Source of the DNA: a virus
Reading direction: 5' to 3' (one strand)
Length of the DNA: 23,617 nucleotides
IMG/VR virus record: IMGVR_UViG_3300037432_000001
Span: 1-23,617 of that record
Part shown: positions 3,033-22,763 of the stretch, one piece after another
Layout of the letters: every line of letters begins with the position of its first letter
Position numbering within the stretch: the stretch's first letter is position 1
The notes under the pieces: model-generated
Told to the model about the DNA's origin: nothing
The model's database searches: none
The model's input: the letters and a program-made list of their open reading frames with translations, nothing else
Translations under genes and position numbers: made by a program

Positions 3033-4234
3033 TGGGGCTTCTGACACTCCTGCAGAGGGCCACCCCTAAGGTCTATTACCAGGGTGGTGGAGCCCTGGAT
3101 ACCAGCCTCTGGGCTCTGGCTAGGTGGCAGGAGGCTATGAGACCTGGGAGCTGGTCCACCGTCACTGGAGAGTTCCCCTGGTACTACTGCACTGAGGAGG
3201 AGGCTCTGGGGCTTCCTGTCATCGCTGGGTTTATGTCCATCACTTCCAGCCTGCTTCTGCAGATGCCCCTCATCGGTTACCGGACACTGCCTGACGGTAG
3301 CCAGCAACCCATCAGTCCCACTCCTCCCATCCTGGCTAATCCTGCTCCAGCCCCTGGCAGGACCTTTGTGGACTTCATTACTGAGTACCTCCACAGCATG
3401 ATCCTGTACGGCAACTATGTGGCCATCTTAGGGCCAAAGAATACTGCTGGCTGGCCTGAGATGATGCTTCCCATTCCTATGGGGCAGTGGAACGTCCAGG
3501 CTGACCAGGGCCGACGGTGGTACACCATCAACGGAGTGGAGTTCACTCCTGACCAGGTCCTGCATGTGATGATGAATAAGGCAGCTGGAGACCTAGTGGG
3601 GAAGGGTGCACTGCAGCTCTATAAGAGGCTTATTGCTAGTTCTGTGGCTGCTGAGAAGTGGGCTGCCACCTATTTCGAGGGTGGGGCCGTACCTCCTGGA
3701 GTGGTGAAGCATCCTAACCCTGAGCTGACCCAGGCCCAGGCTGATGCCCTTAAACTAAAGATGAAGGCTGTAGCCCAGGAGCATGAATGGGCTGTGGTCC
3801 CTGGTGGGACTGAACTGGAAGTGCTGAACTCCAATGCGGAAGAGTCCCAGCTGAATGAGACCAGGAAGCTGAATGCCCAGCAGCTGGCCATGGCTATGGG
3901 TATCCCTGGAGCCCTCCTGGGCCTGGACTCTCCCAGCCTGACGTACAGGAACATCACTGATGTCTTCCAGCAGTTCCTGACCACCACAGTCATGTCCTAC
4001 ATAGTGCCCCTGGAGCAGCAGCTGTCCTCCCAGTGCCTGCCCAGGACCACACAGGCCAGGTTCAACCAGGCTGCTGTGCTGCGACCTGATATGGCTGCCA
4101 GGGTGGACCTGGCCACTAAGGCTATTGCTTCAGGTCTGATGACAGTCCCAGAGGCTAGGGCCTTCTTTGCCCTCGATGTGGTGGCCATGGGTGACACGGT
4201 CGCTGAGCCCCAAACAGAAGAACAGGCAGCGTAA
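3032..4234 (+). CDS. Portal protein, HK97 family
   Basis: A 400-residue protein of typical length for HK97-type portals. The portal forms the dodecameric ring at one capsid vertex through which DNA enters and to which the terminase and connector bind. Diagnostic parts are the N-terminal wing with a hydrophobic strand-helix (GLPVIAGFMSITSSLLLQMP), the FVDFITEYLHSMILYGN stretch, the clip/stem region, and the late MAMGIPGALLGL...SLTYRNI...F motif seen in this family. I start at ATG 3032 rather than the TTG at 3029 because GGAGG at 3023-3027 is well spaced for it. It ends in TAATG overlapping the protease. Confidence 0.93.
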   Translation: MGLLTLLQRATPKVYYQGGGALDTSLWALARWQEAMRPGSWSTVTGEFPWYYCTEEEALGLPVIAGFMSITSSLLLQMPLIGYRTLPDGSQQPISPTPPILANPAPAPGRTFVDFITEYLHSMILYGNYVAILGPKNTAGWPEMMLPIPMGQWNVQADQGRRWYTINGVEFTPDQVLHVMMNKAAGDLVGKGALQLYKRLIASSVAAEKWAATYFEGGAVPPGVVKHPNPELTQAQADALKLKMKAVAQEHEWAVVPGGTELEVLNSNAEESQLNETRKLNAQQLAMAMGIPGALLGLDSPSLTYRNITDVFQQFLTTTVMSYIVPLEQQLSSQCLPRTTQARFNQAAVLRPDMAARVDLATKAIASGLMTVPEARAFFALDVVAMGDTVAEPQTEEQAA

Positions 4235-4791
4235 TGGATGTCTATACCAGGAGTTTCGAGACAGAGCTAGCAGTGATTGGTGATGGCAGGACTGTCTCAG
4301 GGATGCTGGCTCCCTACAATGAAGTGACCAGGGTAAACGATGGGTTCGGCGACTACTGGGAGACCTTTGAACCAGGCTGTTTCGCTAAGTGTCTGAAGCC
4401 CAGACCCAACTATCTCAGGGTGCAGCTCGAACATAATGGCCACTGGGTGGGTCGTGGGGCCATGTGGCATGACCAGCCCTCTGGCCTATGTGCGGACCTG
4501 AGACTGGATGACACAGAAGCTGGCAGAGAGGCAGCCTTCAAGATTAGGGATGGCCAGACTCCTGGGCTCTCTTTGGCCTTCCAGCCAGCCGCCTTTAATC
4601 CCACCATTAAGCATAGAGATGGCAGGGATGTGCTGCATAGAAAGAACGTCAAGGGGCTCCACCACGTGGCCCTGTGCCAGGTCCCTGCCTACCCATCAGC
4701 CCAGGTCACAGCAGTCAGAGAGGCTCCTCCTGGGCCACCAGAACGACTTGCTTACTGGCAGGAGTGGACACAAAGGGTGAAGCGTGGTTAG
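4234..4791 (+). CDS. Prohead protease, HK97 family (U35-like serine protease)
   Basis: A 185-residue protease that matures the capsid by removing the N-terminal scaffold-like domain of the major capsid protein inside the prohead. The likely catalytic residues are H67 in LEHN and S113 in GLSLAF, the pattern of this family (H then GxS followed by a hydrophobic strand). The strand order (VSGMLAPYN near the start, then VPAYPSAQV near residue 150) is typical. It starts within the TAATG of the portal stop. A long structured leader, rather than the usual short gap, separates it from the capsid gene. Confidence 0.9.
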   Translation: MDVYTRSFETELAVIGDGRTVSGMLAPYNEVTRVNDGFGDYWETFEPGCFAKCLKPRPNYLRVQLEHNGHWVGRGAMWHDQPSGLCADLRLDDTEAGREAAFKIRDGQTPGLSLAFQPAAFNPTIKHRDGRDVLHRKNVKGLHHVALCQVPAYPSAQVTAVREAPPGPPERLAYWQEWTQRVKRG

Positions 4792-4997
4792 CTGCAAATG
4801 AACCACCAGGTGGGCTGGCCCTGTTAGCTACCGTCCCTTCCTGAGCTCTGCATCCACGGCGCTTTAAACCCGGTGGCTACCTGTATTCACGATCAGGTAT
4901 CCAATAGCAGGGCCAGCCCTCCACCCCCATATCCTCACTGTTCCCCTGCCGGTAGGCAGCCATCCAGCTGAGAGAACCAGAACTTCTCTCTCACCTA
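4792..4997 (+). ncRNA. Candidate structured RNA: three-way junction and two hairpins in the capsid leader
   Basis: This 206-bp gap holds no gene but folds extensively as plus-strand RNA. Stem P1: 4812-4826 with 4905-4919, 15 pairs (12 perfect GC-rich pairs, one G-U, two A-U), extended by 4809-4811 with 4923-4925 across a bulge. Stem P2: 4827-4833 with 4871-4877, 7 pairs with one G-U. Stem P3: TACCTG 4878-4883 with CAGGTA 4894-4899, 10-base loop. P1 abuts P2 and P2 abuts P3 with no unpaired base; five bases (4900-4904) link P3 back to P1. Two hairpins follow: CTGCC-GGTA-GGCAG 4946-4959 and GAGAGAA-7 bases-TTCTCTC 4970-4990, the latter ending 7 bases before the capsid ATG and hiding the only Shine-Dalgarno-like bases. 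I recognise no known RNA family. Function is inferred to be control of capsid translation or mRNA processing. Confidence 0.55.
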
Positions 4998-6332
4998 ATG
5001 GATGATGACATGCCTACTACTGAACTTTCAGGAACTAAGAGACTGGACTGGCTCCGCCGTCAGCGTGACCAGGCTATGTCTGACGTTGAGTCCATCACCA
5101 GCAGGGCTGCCGATGAGGACAGAGACCTCTCTGACTCTGAGCAGTCCACCTGTGAAGCCAGACGTTCTCGCATCTCTGGCCTGGATGAGGACATCAAGGT
5201 GGAGGCTGGGCTAGCTGAACGGTCTGCCACCTATCAGGACCTGGTCTCCCATATCGGCCCTGCCCACCATCAGCAGGCCCAGGGGGTGGAACGTTCCGCT
5301 CAGCTGGAAGTCCCTACCTACAACACACCAGGTGAGTACCTGGTGGACTTCTGCCTCAGGAGTGAGAACCCAGAGGCTAGGGCTCGCTTTGACCGGTACC
5401 TGCAGAGGGCCGTTGCCCACCAGACCACTGCTCAGAACCCTGGCCTGCTCCCCACTCCCATCCTGGGGCCAGTCTTCACGCAGCAGACAGCCAGGCGTCC
5501 AGCCATTGAAGCCACCACTAAGCGCCCGCTGCCTGGCCCAGGTAAGACCTTCCAGCGCCCTAAGATTAGCCAGTACACCACTGCTGGTCCGCAGTCTGCA
5601 GAGAAGGCAGAGCTGCCCAGCCAGGTGATGACAGTGGACCCTGTGACTGTCACTAAATCTACGTACGGTGGAGTGGTGAACCTGTCCTGGCAGGATCGAG
5701 ACTGGACAGACCCGGCCATTATGGACCTGCTGGTTTCTGACCTGGCTGCCTCTTATGCTCAGGTCACTGATGCAGCCTTCTGTACATACTTCAATGGGCA
5801 GGTTACCCAGACTGAAGCTGCCGCTACTCCTGATGGCAAGGGGGTTCTAGGGGCTCTCTACGCTGCCTCAGGAGACATCTACGCTTCCACCAATGGCATG
5901 CCTGATACCCTCTGGGCTGCCCCTGATGTTTGGGGATCTCTGGGCTCTATGGTGGACGGCAGTGGCCGACAGCTGTTCCCCACTGTGAATCCCCAGAATG
6001 CGCTGGGCAATATCCAGCCCACCTCGATGACTGGCACTGTGGCTGGGTTCAGGATGGTTATTGATAAGAACCTGCCTGCCGGTACCGCCATCCTGGGTGA
6101 CAGCCAGTATGTGGAAGTGTATGAGACCATCGGTGGCCAGGTCTCAGCTATTGAACCCAGTGTCCTGGGTACTCAGGTGGCCTTCTATGGCTACATTGCC
6201 TGGCTGGTCCTCGAACCTGATGCCTTTGTGAAGGTGACAGGTATGCCTGCTGCCCCTCTTAGTGGTGGAACCCAGTCCACCGATGAGAATGGCGGAAAGG
6301 CTGCCTACCAGAGTTCAAAGGCAGCGAAGTAA
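4998..6332 (+). CDS. Major capsid protein, HK97 fold
   Basis: A 444-residue protein that forms the icosahedral shell. Residues about 10-75 are charged and helical, like the delta (scaffold) domain removed by the protease; cleavage probably falls between about residues 85 and 110. The following region has the HK97 pattern: an N-arm with prolines (GLLPTPILGPVF), an E-loop region, the A/P-domain core, and the late GYIAWLVLEPDAFVKVTG strand-turn. A short polar tail follows. The start is ATG 4998 or ATG 5010; neither has a clear free ribosome site because the adjacent bases can pair in a hairpin. The stop overlaps the next gene as TAATG. Confidence 0.92.
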   Translation: MDDDMPTTELSGTKRLDWLRRQRDQAMSDVESITSRAADEDRDLSDSEQSTCEARRSRISGLDEDIKVEAGLAERSATYQDLVSHIGPAHHQQAQGVERSAQLEVPTYNTPGEYLVDFCLRSENPEARARFDRYLQRAVAHQTTAQNPGLLPTPILGPVFTQQTARRPAIEATTKRPLPGPGKTFQRPKISQYTTAGPQSAEKAELPSQVMTVDPVTVTKSTYGGVVNLSWQDRDWTDPAIMDLLVSDLAASYAQVTDAAFCTYFNGQVTQTEAAATPDGKGVLGALYAASGDIYASTNGMPDTLWAAPDVWGSLGSMVDGSGRQLFPTVNPQNALGNIQPTSMTGTVAGFRMVIDKNLPAGTAILGDSQYVEVYETIGGQVSAIEPSVLGTQVAFYGYIAWLVLEPDAFVKVTGMPAAPLSGGTQSTDENGGKAAYQSSKAAK

Positions 6333-16856: not shown

Positions 16857-17054
16857 ATGGAGCTGTACGACAGGGAAGACGCAGGGAGGTTGGGCCTGGA
16901 CCCTGAGTCACTGGCTCAGGAAACCATCAGGCAGCAGATTCAGTCTGCCCCTGCCCGGGATGCTGACCACTGGCAGAAGCTGCTGAGTCTTGGCGCCACA
17001 CAGGAGTCACCCTGTCAGCCTGAAGACCCTTCAGACCCTTCCGTGACGCCTTAG
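16857..17054 (+). CDS. Small protein converging on and overlapping the integrase gene
   Basis: A 65-residue frame from ATG 16857 (GTG 16854 is an alternative) behind a strong AGGAGGGG at 16847-16854. The sequence is helical and acidic to about residue 45 (LGLDPESLAQETIRQQIQ, DADHWQKLLSLGAT), then a Pro/Ser tail. Its last 128 bases run antisense to the last 42 codons of the integrase, so the two genes share DNA tail to tail. The strong ribosome site makes me accept it; function unknown. Confidence 0.5.
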   Translation: MELYDREDAGRLGLDPESLAQETIRQQIQSAPARDADHWQKLLSLGATQESPCQPEDPSDPSVTP

Positions 17055-18525
17055 AGATATCCAGCCTCTCCAGCTCGGCCCTGGCCATCCTCCGCATGGC
17101 TGGGATGTCACCCTTAGCCTTAGCCTGCTCCCACTGGTCCACCGTATGTCTGGGGGCTGGCGCTGCCTGAGACCTGTTCCACTCCGCCCAGGCCTTCTGG
17201 ATGGGTGCCAGCTCCTGATTGATGTCTCGCAGGGTGCTCAGCTTCTCACTGAGGCTCATCTCCCTGGCCCGGTAGCGCTGGGCCACCTCCTCCAGCTGAG
17301 CCTCCCAGTGGTCCAGGTCAGCCTGCTGGGTGAAGGGCTGAGCCTCTGGGACCACAGCCACTGCCCTTTCTGTCCACAGGGCTGTCAACAGGTCTCCCAC
17401 ATGGCTGTCCAGGTGGGGGCCACTTATCGTGCAGCAGCCCTTCGCACACCGATAATAGTGGCGGCCCCTATCGCTGTAGAAGCAGCCATTCATAGCTTCT
17501 CCACAGACTGTTCCCCAGCAGAGCTGAGACAGCACATAACTGGCCCTGGTCTGGACAGCTTGCCTACAGCGGTCCCCCTTACCTGAGAGTTCAGTAATAA
17601 GGGCCTTCCAGGTCTGCTCAGTGAGGATGGCTGGAACTTGAGACCTGATGGGTCGGCCCTCATCGTCTGGAACAGTCCACTGGTAGATAGGTGGGGTCAG
17701 CTCTCCTGGCCTAGCCTTAGGCTTATGAACCAGGTAGCCCACTATCCTGGGGCTCAGGAGCATGTTCCTGATGGTACTTCTGGCCATCACCCCACCCTTA
17801 GGGCTAAGGATTCCAGCCTGGTCCCACTCTCGTTTGACCTCAGCGACAGACTTCCCCTGAAGGACATCCTTAGCAGCCTTCCTAATGAGGTCAGCCTCAG
17901 GAGACTCCTGATCATGGTTAGCCCCAGTGACTCCGAACATCCTAGGACCAACATAGCGGCCACTCTCCCTGAGCTGGGAGTGCCTATCGCTCTGTCGCTG
18001 GGACATGACCGCTAATTCGTCATAGCCCCTAGAGGCAGCACCATAGGCTGCAGCCCTACCCATAGGTGTAGAGAGGTCCAGAGCCTCCTGGGGAGTGGAG
18101 AATTTCAGGCCAGGGTGAGCCTCATAGACTCTGATCAGGACAGTGATGTCCTCTGGGTCCCTAACCACACGGAAGAAGTGGGAACCCACTAGGCCATCGT
18201 AGTTGCCCAGGTCTAGTAGGAGAGCCTGAAACTCTGGCCTGGCCCCCTTCCTGGTATCGGCAGACTTTGCCATGTCGCACCGCACTGCCACCACCACACC
18301 GCCCAGCTTCTTAGCCAGTGAGAGGCAGGTCTGGTATTGGCGCTGCAGGGCTAGTAGGTGATCAGACTCACTCACCTTCTCATTTGATAGCCTCAGGTAG
18401 GCGATAAGTCTGATCTGACCAGCCTTAGGGGTGGGGAAGGTGAGACTGGCCAGCCACCGGCCCGAGGGGGTCTGGCTGAGGTCCTTAGCAGGCTTCTTTG
18501 TGTACCTACGCTTCTGGGTCATCAT
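16927..18525 (-). CDS. int: Large serine integrase
   Basis: A 532-residue site-specific recombinase that integrates the phage at attB using its attP. The resolvase domain starts near residue 36: AYLRLS gives catalytic S47 and R45, and RPEF at 96-99 and LDL follow. The zone that aligns with the D-R-x-x-R of resolvases reads F118-R119-V-V-R122: both arginines are kept but the aspartate is Phe. The recombinase domain follows (LDLSTPMGRAAAYGAASRGYDE, then ESGRYVGPRMFGV, and KGGVMARSTIRNMLLSPRIVGY). The zinc ribbon uses C336, C341, C360 and C364/C365, then a coiled coil (about 395-450). Start is ATG 18525 or 18522; the ribosome site is weak. attP lies 26 bases upstream. Confidence 0.92.
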   Translation of the reverse strand: MMTQKRRYTKKPAKDLSQTPSGRWLASLTFPTPKAGQIRLIAYLRLSNEKVSESDHLLALQRQYQTCLSLAKKLGGVVVAVRCDMAKSADTRKGARPEFQALLLDLGNYDGLVGSHFFRVVRDPEDITVLIRVYEAHPGLKFSTPQEALDLSTPMGRAAAYGAASRGYDELAVMSQRQSDRHSQLRESGRYVGPRMFGVTGANHDQESPEADLIRKAAKDVLQGKSVAEVKREWDQAGILSPKGGVMARSTIRNMLLSPRIVGYLVHKPKARPGELTPPIYQWTVPDDEGRPIRSQVPAILTEQTWKALITELSGKGDRCRQAVQTRASYVLSQLCWGTVCGEAMNGCFYSDRGRHYYRCAKGCCTISGPHLDSHVGDLLTALWTERAVAVVPEAQPFTQQADLDHWEAQLEEVAQRYRAREMSLSEKLSTLRDINQELAPIQKAWAEWNRSQAAPAPRHTVDQWEQAKAKGDIPAMRRMARAELERLDISKASRKGLKGLQADRVTPVWRQDSAASASGQHPGQGQTESAA

Positions 18526-21532: not shown

Positions 21533-21891
21533 CAATCATTTCTCATCGTACGGAAATAGTGCCCCTGGATAATGGGGACTATCTCTTTAAGATAACTAAT
21601 GGTAAGGGTGCGATTCTGCGTAAGTCTACTCACTCATCCCTGGATGCAGCCAGACAGGCTCTATATACCTGGGTGGGGCATCGGTCGCCTCTCAGTGAGC
21701 CTGGAGAGGCCCCCCTGCTAAGCCCAGAAGAAGAGAGCAAACTCTGCCTAGCTAGGGCAGAACAGGCCAGGGAAGAGGCTATAGAGCACCGAGAAAGGGC
21801 CAGGGAGCTAGAGACTCTTGCAACTAGGCTGGAGAAGGCGTCAAGGGTTCTATTGGGAGAGCCAGTGAGAGCTAAGAAGGCAGACGCATGA
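21529..21891 (+). CDS. Coiled-coil protein of the recombination operon; paralogue of the gene at 19759-20145
   Basis: A 120-residue protein. N-terminal small domain (RTEIVPLDNGDYLFKITNGK, AILRKSTHSSLDAARQAL, TWVGH), Pro-rich linker (about 51-66), then a coiled coil (RAEQAREEAIEHRERARELE, TRLEKASRVLLGEP). The order and the end pattern match the leftward gene at 19759-20145. Starts by ATGA overlap and stops overlapping bet by ATGA. Function unknown. If it forms mixed coils with the leftward paralogue it could antagonise it, which is inference. Confidence 0.65.
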   Translation: MTIISHRTEIVPLDNGDYLFKITNGKGAILRKSTHSSLDAARQALYTWVGHRSPLSEPGEAPLLSPEEESKLCLARAEQAREEAIEHRERARELETLATRLEKASRVLLGEPVRAKKADA

Positions 21892-22763
21892 CTCTCACCA
21901 CTAACAGTCTCAGAGACCAGGTGGACCTCATCAAGAGGACCGTAGCTAAGGGTGCTACAGACCTGGAGCTAGAGCTGTTCATCAAACAGTGTGAACGTAC
22001 GGGCCTAGACCCATTCTCGAGGCAGATTTATGCCATTAAGAGATGGGATGCCCAGGTTGGGGCAGAGGTCCTACAGACGCAGGTCTCCATTGATGGGCTC
22101 AGGACACTGGCTGCAGATACTGGGGAACTGGGTGGCCAGGATGGTCCCTTCTGGGCTGGCAGGACAGGAATGTGGACTGATGTCTGGCTCCAGGATGACA
22201 ACCCTAAGGCCAGCAAAGTCACTGTCTACCGGTATGTAGGAGACAGGAGAGCCAGCTTCACTGGAGTGGCCCTCTGGGACTCTTATTGTCAGCGCAAGAA
22301 GGATGGCAGCCCTACCAGGATGTGGGCTCAGATGGGACCAGAGATGCTGGCTAAGTGTGCAGAGGCCCTGGCTCTCCGTAAGGCCTTTCCCCAGGGCCTG
22401 AGTGGTCTCTATACAGGGGATGAATTGGCCCAGGCCAGCTCTGAGCAGCCCATTCAATCCAGAGGCTCCCAGAGGGCTCTCACAGGCCCTCCCAGCTCCG
22501 CCGATGGACCAGGACCCATGCTGGCCCCTCCAAACGCTCCTGAGGGCAAATCAGAGGCTCCTGGGCCGACGTCAGGGGCTCCAGCAGGCGTTCGGGATGC
22601 AGTGGCAGGCCTTCTGGGGAGGTTGTCGCCGGAGCAGCGTTCAGCTGTCTTGGTCTCTGTTGATGAACAGAAACTCAGGCTTCCTGATGACCCAGCCTTC
22701 ACAGTCGATGAGGCTAACACCTGGACTGCACTCATAACTGAGGTCAAGAGACATGCCAGTTAA
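21888..22763 (+). CDS. bet: Single-strand annealing protein, Bet family (RecT superfamily)
   Basis: A 291-residue recombination protein that anneals complementary single strands made by the exonuclease. The Bet signature is strong: LIKRTVAKGATDLELELFIK, TGLDPFSRQIYAIKRWD (residues about 37-53), QVSIDGLRTLAADTGELGGQ, a beta region with W-x-D-V-W-L, and MGPEMLAKCAEALALRKAFP, then GLYTGDELAQA. Residues about 185-235 are a Pro/Gly/Ser linker and the last 55 form a separate helical tail. Coupled to both neighbours by short overlaps. Confidence 0.92.
   Translation: MTLTTNSLRDQVDLIKRTVAKGATDLELELFIKQCERTGLDPFSRQIYAIKRWDAQVGAEVLQTQVSIDGLRTLAADTGELGGQDGPFWAGRTGMWTDVWLQDDNPKASKVTVYRYVGDRRASFTGVALWDSYCQRKKDGSPTRMWAQMGPEMLAKCAEALALRKAFPQGLSGLYTGDELAQASSEQPIQSRGSQRALTGPPSSADGPGPMLAPPNAPEGKSEAPGPTSGAPAGVRDAVAGLLGRLSPEQRSAVLVSVDEQKLRLPDDPAFTVDEANTWTALITEVKRHAS

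Follow-up and report, generated by a model that had tools for sequence, protein, structure and literature searches.

A structured leader upstream of a phage major capsid gene as a candidate translational switch

The MS2 coat operator and that of T4 gene 32 are autogenous translational operators of phage proteins. The Mu-gpT-DE motif lies upstream of a Mu-type capsid gene and resembles the RNA considered here in being a candidate structured RNA tied to a major capsid gene. When RNase III binds the leader of the lambda cIII mRNA, the leader changes its conformation, and a structure that inhibits translation is relieved (review PMC2777011). The present analysis deals with the leader of the major capsid gene in a virus record of 23.6 kb; the whole stretch of 23,617 nucleotides is referred to as the window. 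This leader occupies a conserved position, is structured beyond chance, and shows covariation in the helices P1, P4, P5 and P6 (Table 1). On balance, it would appear to be a selected cis-acting RNA that governs translation of the capsid gene as a switch or operator.

The structural operon is of siphovirus type, with the order terminase, portal, S78 prohead protease, HK97-type major capsid protein, connector and tail genes; downstream of it lie a serine recombinase and then a RecT gene. The presence of this large serine recombinase (16927–18525, minus strand) and of the RecT-family gene (21888–22763, plus strand) suggests that the phage is temperate and brings its own recombination genes. Judged by capsid protein, the closest named relatives are mycobacteriophages (~32% identity), and prophage-like relatives with 32–39% capsid identity occur in actinobacterial genomes, e.g. 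those of Phytomonospora and Microlunatus; an actinobacterial host is therefore likely. A single profile, phrog_2263, covers both protease and capsid (4234–6332 in the window), so that in some phages the two may be made as one polypeptide; in the window, a leader of about 200 nt lies between them. Programmed bypassing from protease to capsid, prompted by this profile, was set aside because relatives differ in the codon that precedes the protease stop.

Table 1. Features of the capsid leader and its flanking genes (window coordinates).
Feature	Position	Strand	Evidence or remark
Prohead protease gene (Peptidase_S78), upstream of capsid	4234..4791	+	domain/profile match
P1, 15-bp closing helix of three-way junction	4812-4826/4905-4919	+	pair probabilities 0.72-1.0
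P2, 7-bp helix with inner hairpin	4827-4833/4871-4877	+	pair probabilities 0.98-1.0
Unpaired CCCUUCC, within P2 element	4835-4841	+	CCCTTCC recurs in leaders
P3, 6-bp helix	4878-4883/4894-4899	+	pair probabilities 0.74-1.0
Junction spacer UCCAA, P3 to P1, 5 nt	4900-4904	+	UCCAA in window, L002, L003; UCCAU in L033, L034
P4 (open fold), CTCACTG 4934-4940 with CAGCTGAG 4965-4972, one bulged C	4934..4972	+	family covariation
P5, small hairpin, CTGCC 4946-4950 / GGCAG 4955-4959	4946..4959	+	family covariation
P6, hairpin, TGAGAGA 4969-4975 with TCTCTCTCA 4985-4993	4969..4993	+	family pair counts, cognate-swap
P6ext (predicted closed fold), CATCCA 4961-4966 with SD region TGGATG 4999-5004	4961..5004	+	probabilities 0.79-0.99; p 0.001 in window
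P7-like predicted pairing of the window's clade, GTAGGCA 4952-4958 with TGCCTAC 5011-5017, over start codon	4952..5017	+	probabilities 0.96-0.98
Major capsid protein gene, ATG 5010	5010..6332	+	Phage_capsid_4, Phage_capsid, phrog_2263; start common to relatives

Capsid homologues begin at the Met that corresponds to ATG 5010 (MPTTELSG) and lack one at the position of 4998; the true start is therefore ATG 5010 and not 4998. An SD-like GGATG lies upstream of it at 5000–5004, so this start does own an SD-like element, and the original prediction was wrong in holding that the capsid ATG lacks a ribosome site. Its claim that the last hairpin masks the bases next to the start stands in part, in that CATCCA at 4961–4966 covers TGGATG at 4999–5004, but the start concerned is ATG 5010. 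Set against shuffled upstream sequence, the SD did not stand out as poorly accessible, and the comparison was indecisive; masking of the SD alone is therefore no proof of regulation.

The upstream part of the leader is a three-way junction. All three of its proposed helices, P1 to P3, were found in place and at the proposed lengths, with no spacer at the P1/P2 and P2/P3 joints, and two further hairpins are present on its 3′ side. Positions 4792–4997 fold far better than dinucleotide-preserving shuffles (MFE −75.8 vs −56.0 ± 4.3, n = 200; z −4.62; 0/200 as good); the z of only −1.65 for the window in the 30-leader survey described below reflects the fixed 190-nt slice used there, which cuts the 5′ arm of P1. 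The compensatory changes sought in P1 were also found: between the window and its relative L002, whose capsids are 90% identical, six of the 15 pairs are compensatory, eight are the same and one is disrupted. The precision of the junction, which had been called rarely due to chance, is real in the window but limited to its clade, since the strict architecture is clear only there and in the relatives L002, L003, L033 and L034; the remaining relatives have a long helix at the junction site, with varied interiors. The 7-mer CCCTTCC occurs in 9/22 leaders, with 0.6 expected and a maximum of 3 among 300 shuffle sets. The terminal loop of P2 (4851–4856) carries a second CATCCA, likewise present in L002, that is complementary to the SD TGGATG at 4999–5004, and a long-range contact between the two is possible.

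Relatives were collected from 36 IMG/VR loci in a first search, to which L076, L160 and L174 were added later. About 30 distinct related viral leaders have a structured gap between protease and capsid, mostly of about 160–230 nt; the mean z for 30 of these is −3.68, vs −0.83 for capsid coding and −0.62 for protease coding controls. In 19 of 22 representatives, a helix of 11–21 bp has a 3′ arm that ends 74–89 nt before the start codon, and its sequence differs between clades. The individual lengths of this helix are often no longer than in shuffles, and the argument for it thus rests on its recurrence at one place and on compensatory changes. In distant relatives (35–40% MCP identity) the gap differs widely in length and is mostly less structured, with no credible match to the model of the 3′ module; a DNA similarity search of a phage collection with the leader gave no match either.

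The better-conserved part of the leader is this 3′ module, which adjoins the capsid start. Alignment of the last 75–90 nt gives the order GCATGAC (strand a), P5, CACCCATG (strand b), P6, SD and ATG. Pairing of strands a and b forms P4. By hand count, 97% of P4, 95% of P5 and 100% of P6 pairs (the last over 20 leaders) are kept, and each of the five pairs in every helix shows changes on both sides, although a hand alignment leans towards structure and the sequences are related. In cognate-swap tests, P4, P5 and P6 each gave p 5e-5. An alignment made with the model gives 94.7% pairing for P4 and P5 and a covariation of 0.555 vs 0.163 when shuffled (0/500), and this covariation is lost once the pairing partners are slid. 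Three of the five P4 pairs are invariant in that alignment; independent changes come from L033 (CAAG/CTTG) and L008 (GGCTG/CAGCC). RNAalifold recovered P4 and P5 from a MAFFT alignment without the window's clade, and P5 only when that clade was included, a result put down to misalignment of the clade. Within the window, P4 alone is weak (−3.6 kcal/mol, p 0.096), and L004 has a mismatched P4. A model of the module built without the window's clade nevertheless matches the window at 4932–5012 with 17.8 bits (E 0.015 over 224 kb), the homologous place, albeit with a weak score and a rough E-value, and it sets the P4 strands of the window opposite each other. A scan for the D-type pattern of the module gave 15 stretches, every one of them on a contig that the capsid search had yielded before. 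A looser pattern gave one known leader and four stretches without a capsid leader; these four were taken as chance.

This arrangement is accompanied by a second set of predicted pairings. Strand b is complementary to the SD (P6ext) and strand a to the start-codon region (P7, which in most relatives outside the window's clade is GCATGAC with GTCATG; L030 and L076 have no P7). P4 and P6ext/P7 are mutually exclusive, because they use the same strands. In the predicted open fold (P4-P5-P6) the ribosome site is free. Among 16 representatives, the unconstrained MFE structure pairs the SD-AUG strand in every case (16/16) and lies 6–15 kcal/mol below the best fold in which that strand is unpaired; this open fold includes P4-P5-P6 in nearly all of them. 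In the full closed fold, P5 of the window is displaced (probability 0.02). Shuffle tests combined over the 16 gave 2e-15 for P4, 9e-10 for P7 and 1e-4 for P6ext, values that serve as guides since the representatives are related. Family-wide cognate-swap tests were suggestive only for P6ext (p 0.024) and P7 (p 0.030), both of which are predicted with weaker support. With stepwise lengthening of the transcript, treated as equilibrium folding of truncated RNAs and not as kinetics, the probability of P4 is mostly 0.7–1.0 before the SD and near 0 after it (low in L004 and L012; 0.99, then 0.04, then 0.0 in the window), and P7 rises at the AUG in most representatives. The closed fold is thus predicted to be the more stable at equilibrium, with P4 yielding once the SD emerges.

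These data can in principle be read in more than one way. The main rival to a translational switch is an element of mRNA processing or stability: RNase III would cut P1-type helices, or these would shield the 5′ end of the processed capsid mRNA, giving an excess of capsid over protease, with pairing of the SD incidental. A long GC-rich helix, variable in sequence and kept at one site in nearly all relatives, is what such an element would offer; its location between low-copy and high-copy structural genes would suit it, as would an SD no less accessible than in shuffles. Only P1 is accounted for in this way. The covarying P4, P5 and P6 beside the SD are not, and two exclusive folds are left unexplained, so that we regard processing or stability as a possible but rather doubtful account of the whole leader.

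A static operator would need no refolding at all; capsid, protease or another phage or host protein would bind P6 and the conserved AAC loop side and so block ribosomes. All leaders counted retain P6, 2–5 nt from the SD, and the AC that follows its 5′ strand does not vary across 28 leaders. The overlap of P4 with the SD-pairing strand would not be needed for this, yet P4 has the strongest shuffle support, and static blocking seems unlikely. Strong GC-rich stems within a non-coding gap might also belong to a stand-alone small RNA, a ribozyme or a transcription terminator, independent of capsid translation. No promoter-like site was found near the leader, and the only match to an intrinsic terminator (a GC-rich hairpin with a T run) at 4600–5100 is on the minus strand and not on the coding strand. 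Curated families of Rfam 15, ribozymes included, gave no match at the gathering threshold in the window or in 14 related loci, and a relaxed scan yielded only weak, chance-level matches far below gathering scores. This bears out the earlier statement that no described RNA family is placed here. A search of the literature found no description of this leader. With regard to a riboswitch, some conserved unpaired motifs (CCCUUCC, UCCAA) were observed but no widely conserved aptamer core. With its position fixed before the capsid gene and the D-type pattern confined to contigs from the capsid search, the stand-alone RNA offered as one option in the original prediction is unsupported, and this class of explanation is very improbable.

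The translational switch is supported because helices are kept by compensatory change (P1, and P4 to P6 by covariation) and because two exclusive folds are predicted around the SD and AUG; the original proposal of a capsid-gene switch is upheld to that extent, but as an overall reading only partly. Both the switching of the RNA and its trigger are inferred. In the open fold, strands a and b would pair as P4, stacked on the P6 hairpin, leaving SD and AUG free; the closed fold would place strand b on the SD and, in most relatives, strand a on the start-codon region (CATCCA/TGGATG plus GTAGGCA/TGCCTAC in the window). P4 would be able to form first, during transcription. The balance might be set by a partner: the capsid protein, the protease, a host factor (RNase III, for instance), or simply how transcription and the arrival of ribosomes are timed. 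The likely role of the P1–P3 element is to stabilise the capsid mRNA or to display CCCUUCC and UCCAA to that partner. How a single late operon of a tailed phage yields capsid in large excess over protease is poorly understood; this conserved leader, for which two exclusive folds are predicted and whose RNA family is absent from Rfam, provides a concrete and testable control point at the capsid start. More tentatively, the leader could belong to a hitherto undescribed RNA family of actinobacterial tailed phages, made up of bistable capsid leaders that would sense the state of assembly through free capsid or protease and so time capsid translation, with diverged hairpin-array counterparts before the capsid genes of other actinophages.

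Hairpins of another kind occur in the capsid leaders of the mycobacteriophages MooMoo (L039, 2381–2509) and prophiGD91-2 (L040, 2348–2473), namely three similar tandem hairpins whose stems differ yet pair (examples are GGCCGAACAGTAGTAGGCC, GACCGAATGGCAGTAGGTC and GGCTGAATTGCAGTAAGCC); they look like a protein-binding array. Further repeated hairpin-like units lie upstream of the capsid gene in JangDynasty (L038, 2314–2464), Bipper (L041, 2304–2485), L111 and L112: CTCGYTRGCCGAGAGGGCTG twice, GCCCTGGCACTGGGC twice, and units of GCGGCCACCC.

Set beside the described systems, the capsid leader shares with that of lambda cIII its place in a phage mRNA leader without a promoter of its own, in which alternative conformations, predicted for the capsid leader, would open or close the start region. 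The gene, the sequence and the host group are different; the effect of RNase III belongs to cIII, whereas the capsid leader is known from predicted folds, and it has in addition an upstream helix or three-way junction. Like the operators of MS2 coat and T4 gene 32, it has hairpins that adjoin or cover the SD, and the gene concerned encodes an abundant phage protein. Binding of their own product is a property of those two operators; the capsid leader is distinguished by two conserved, mutually exclusive predicted folds.
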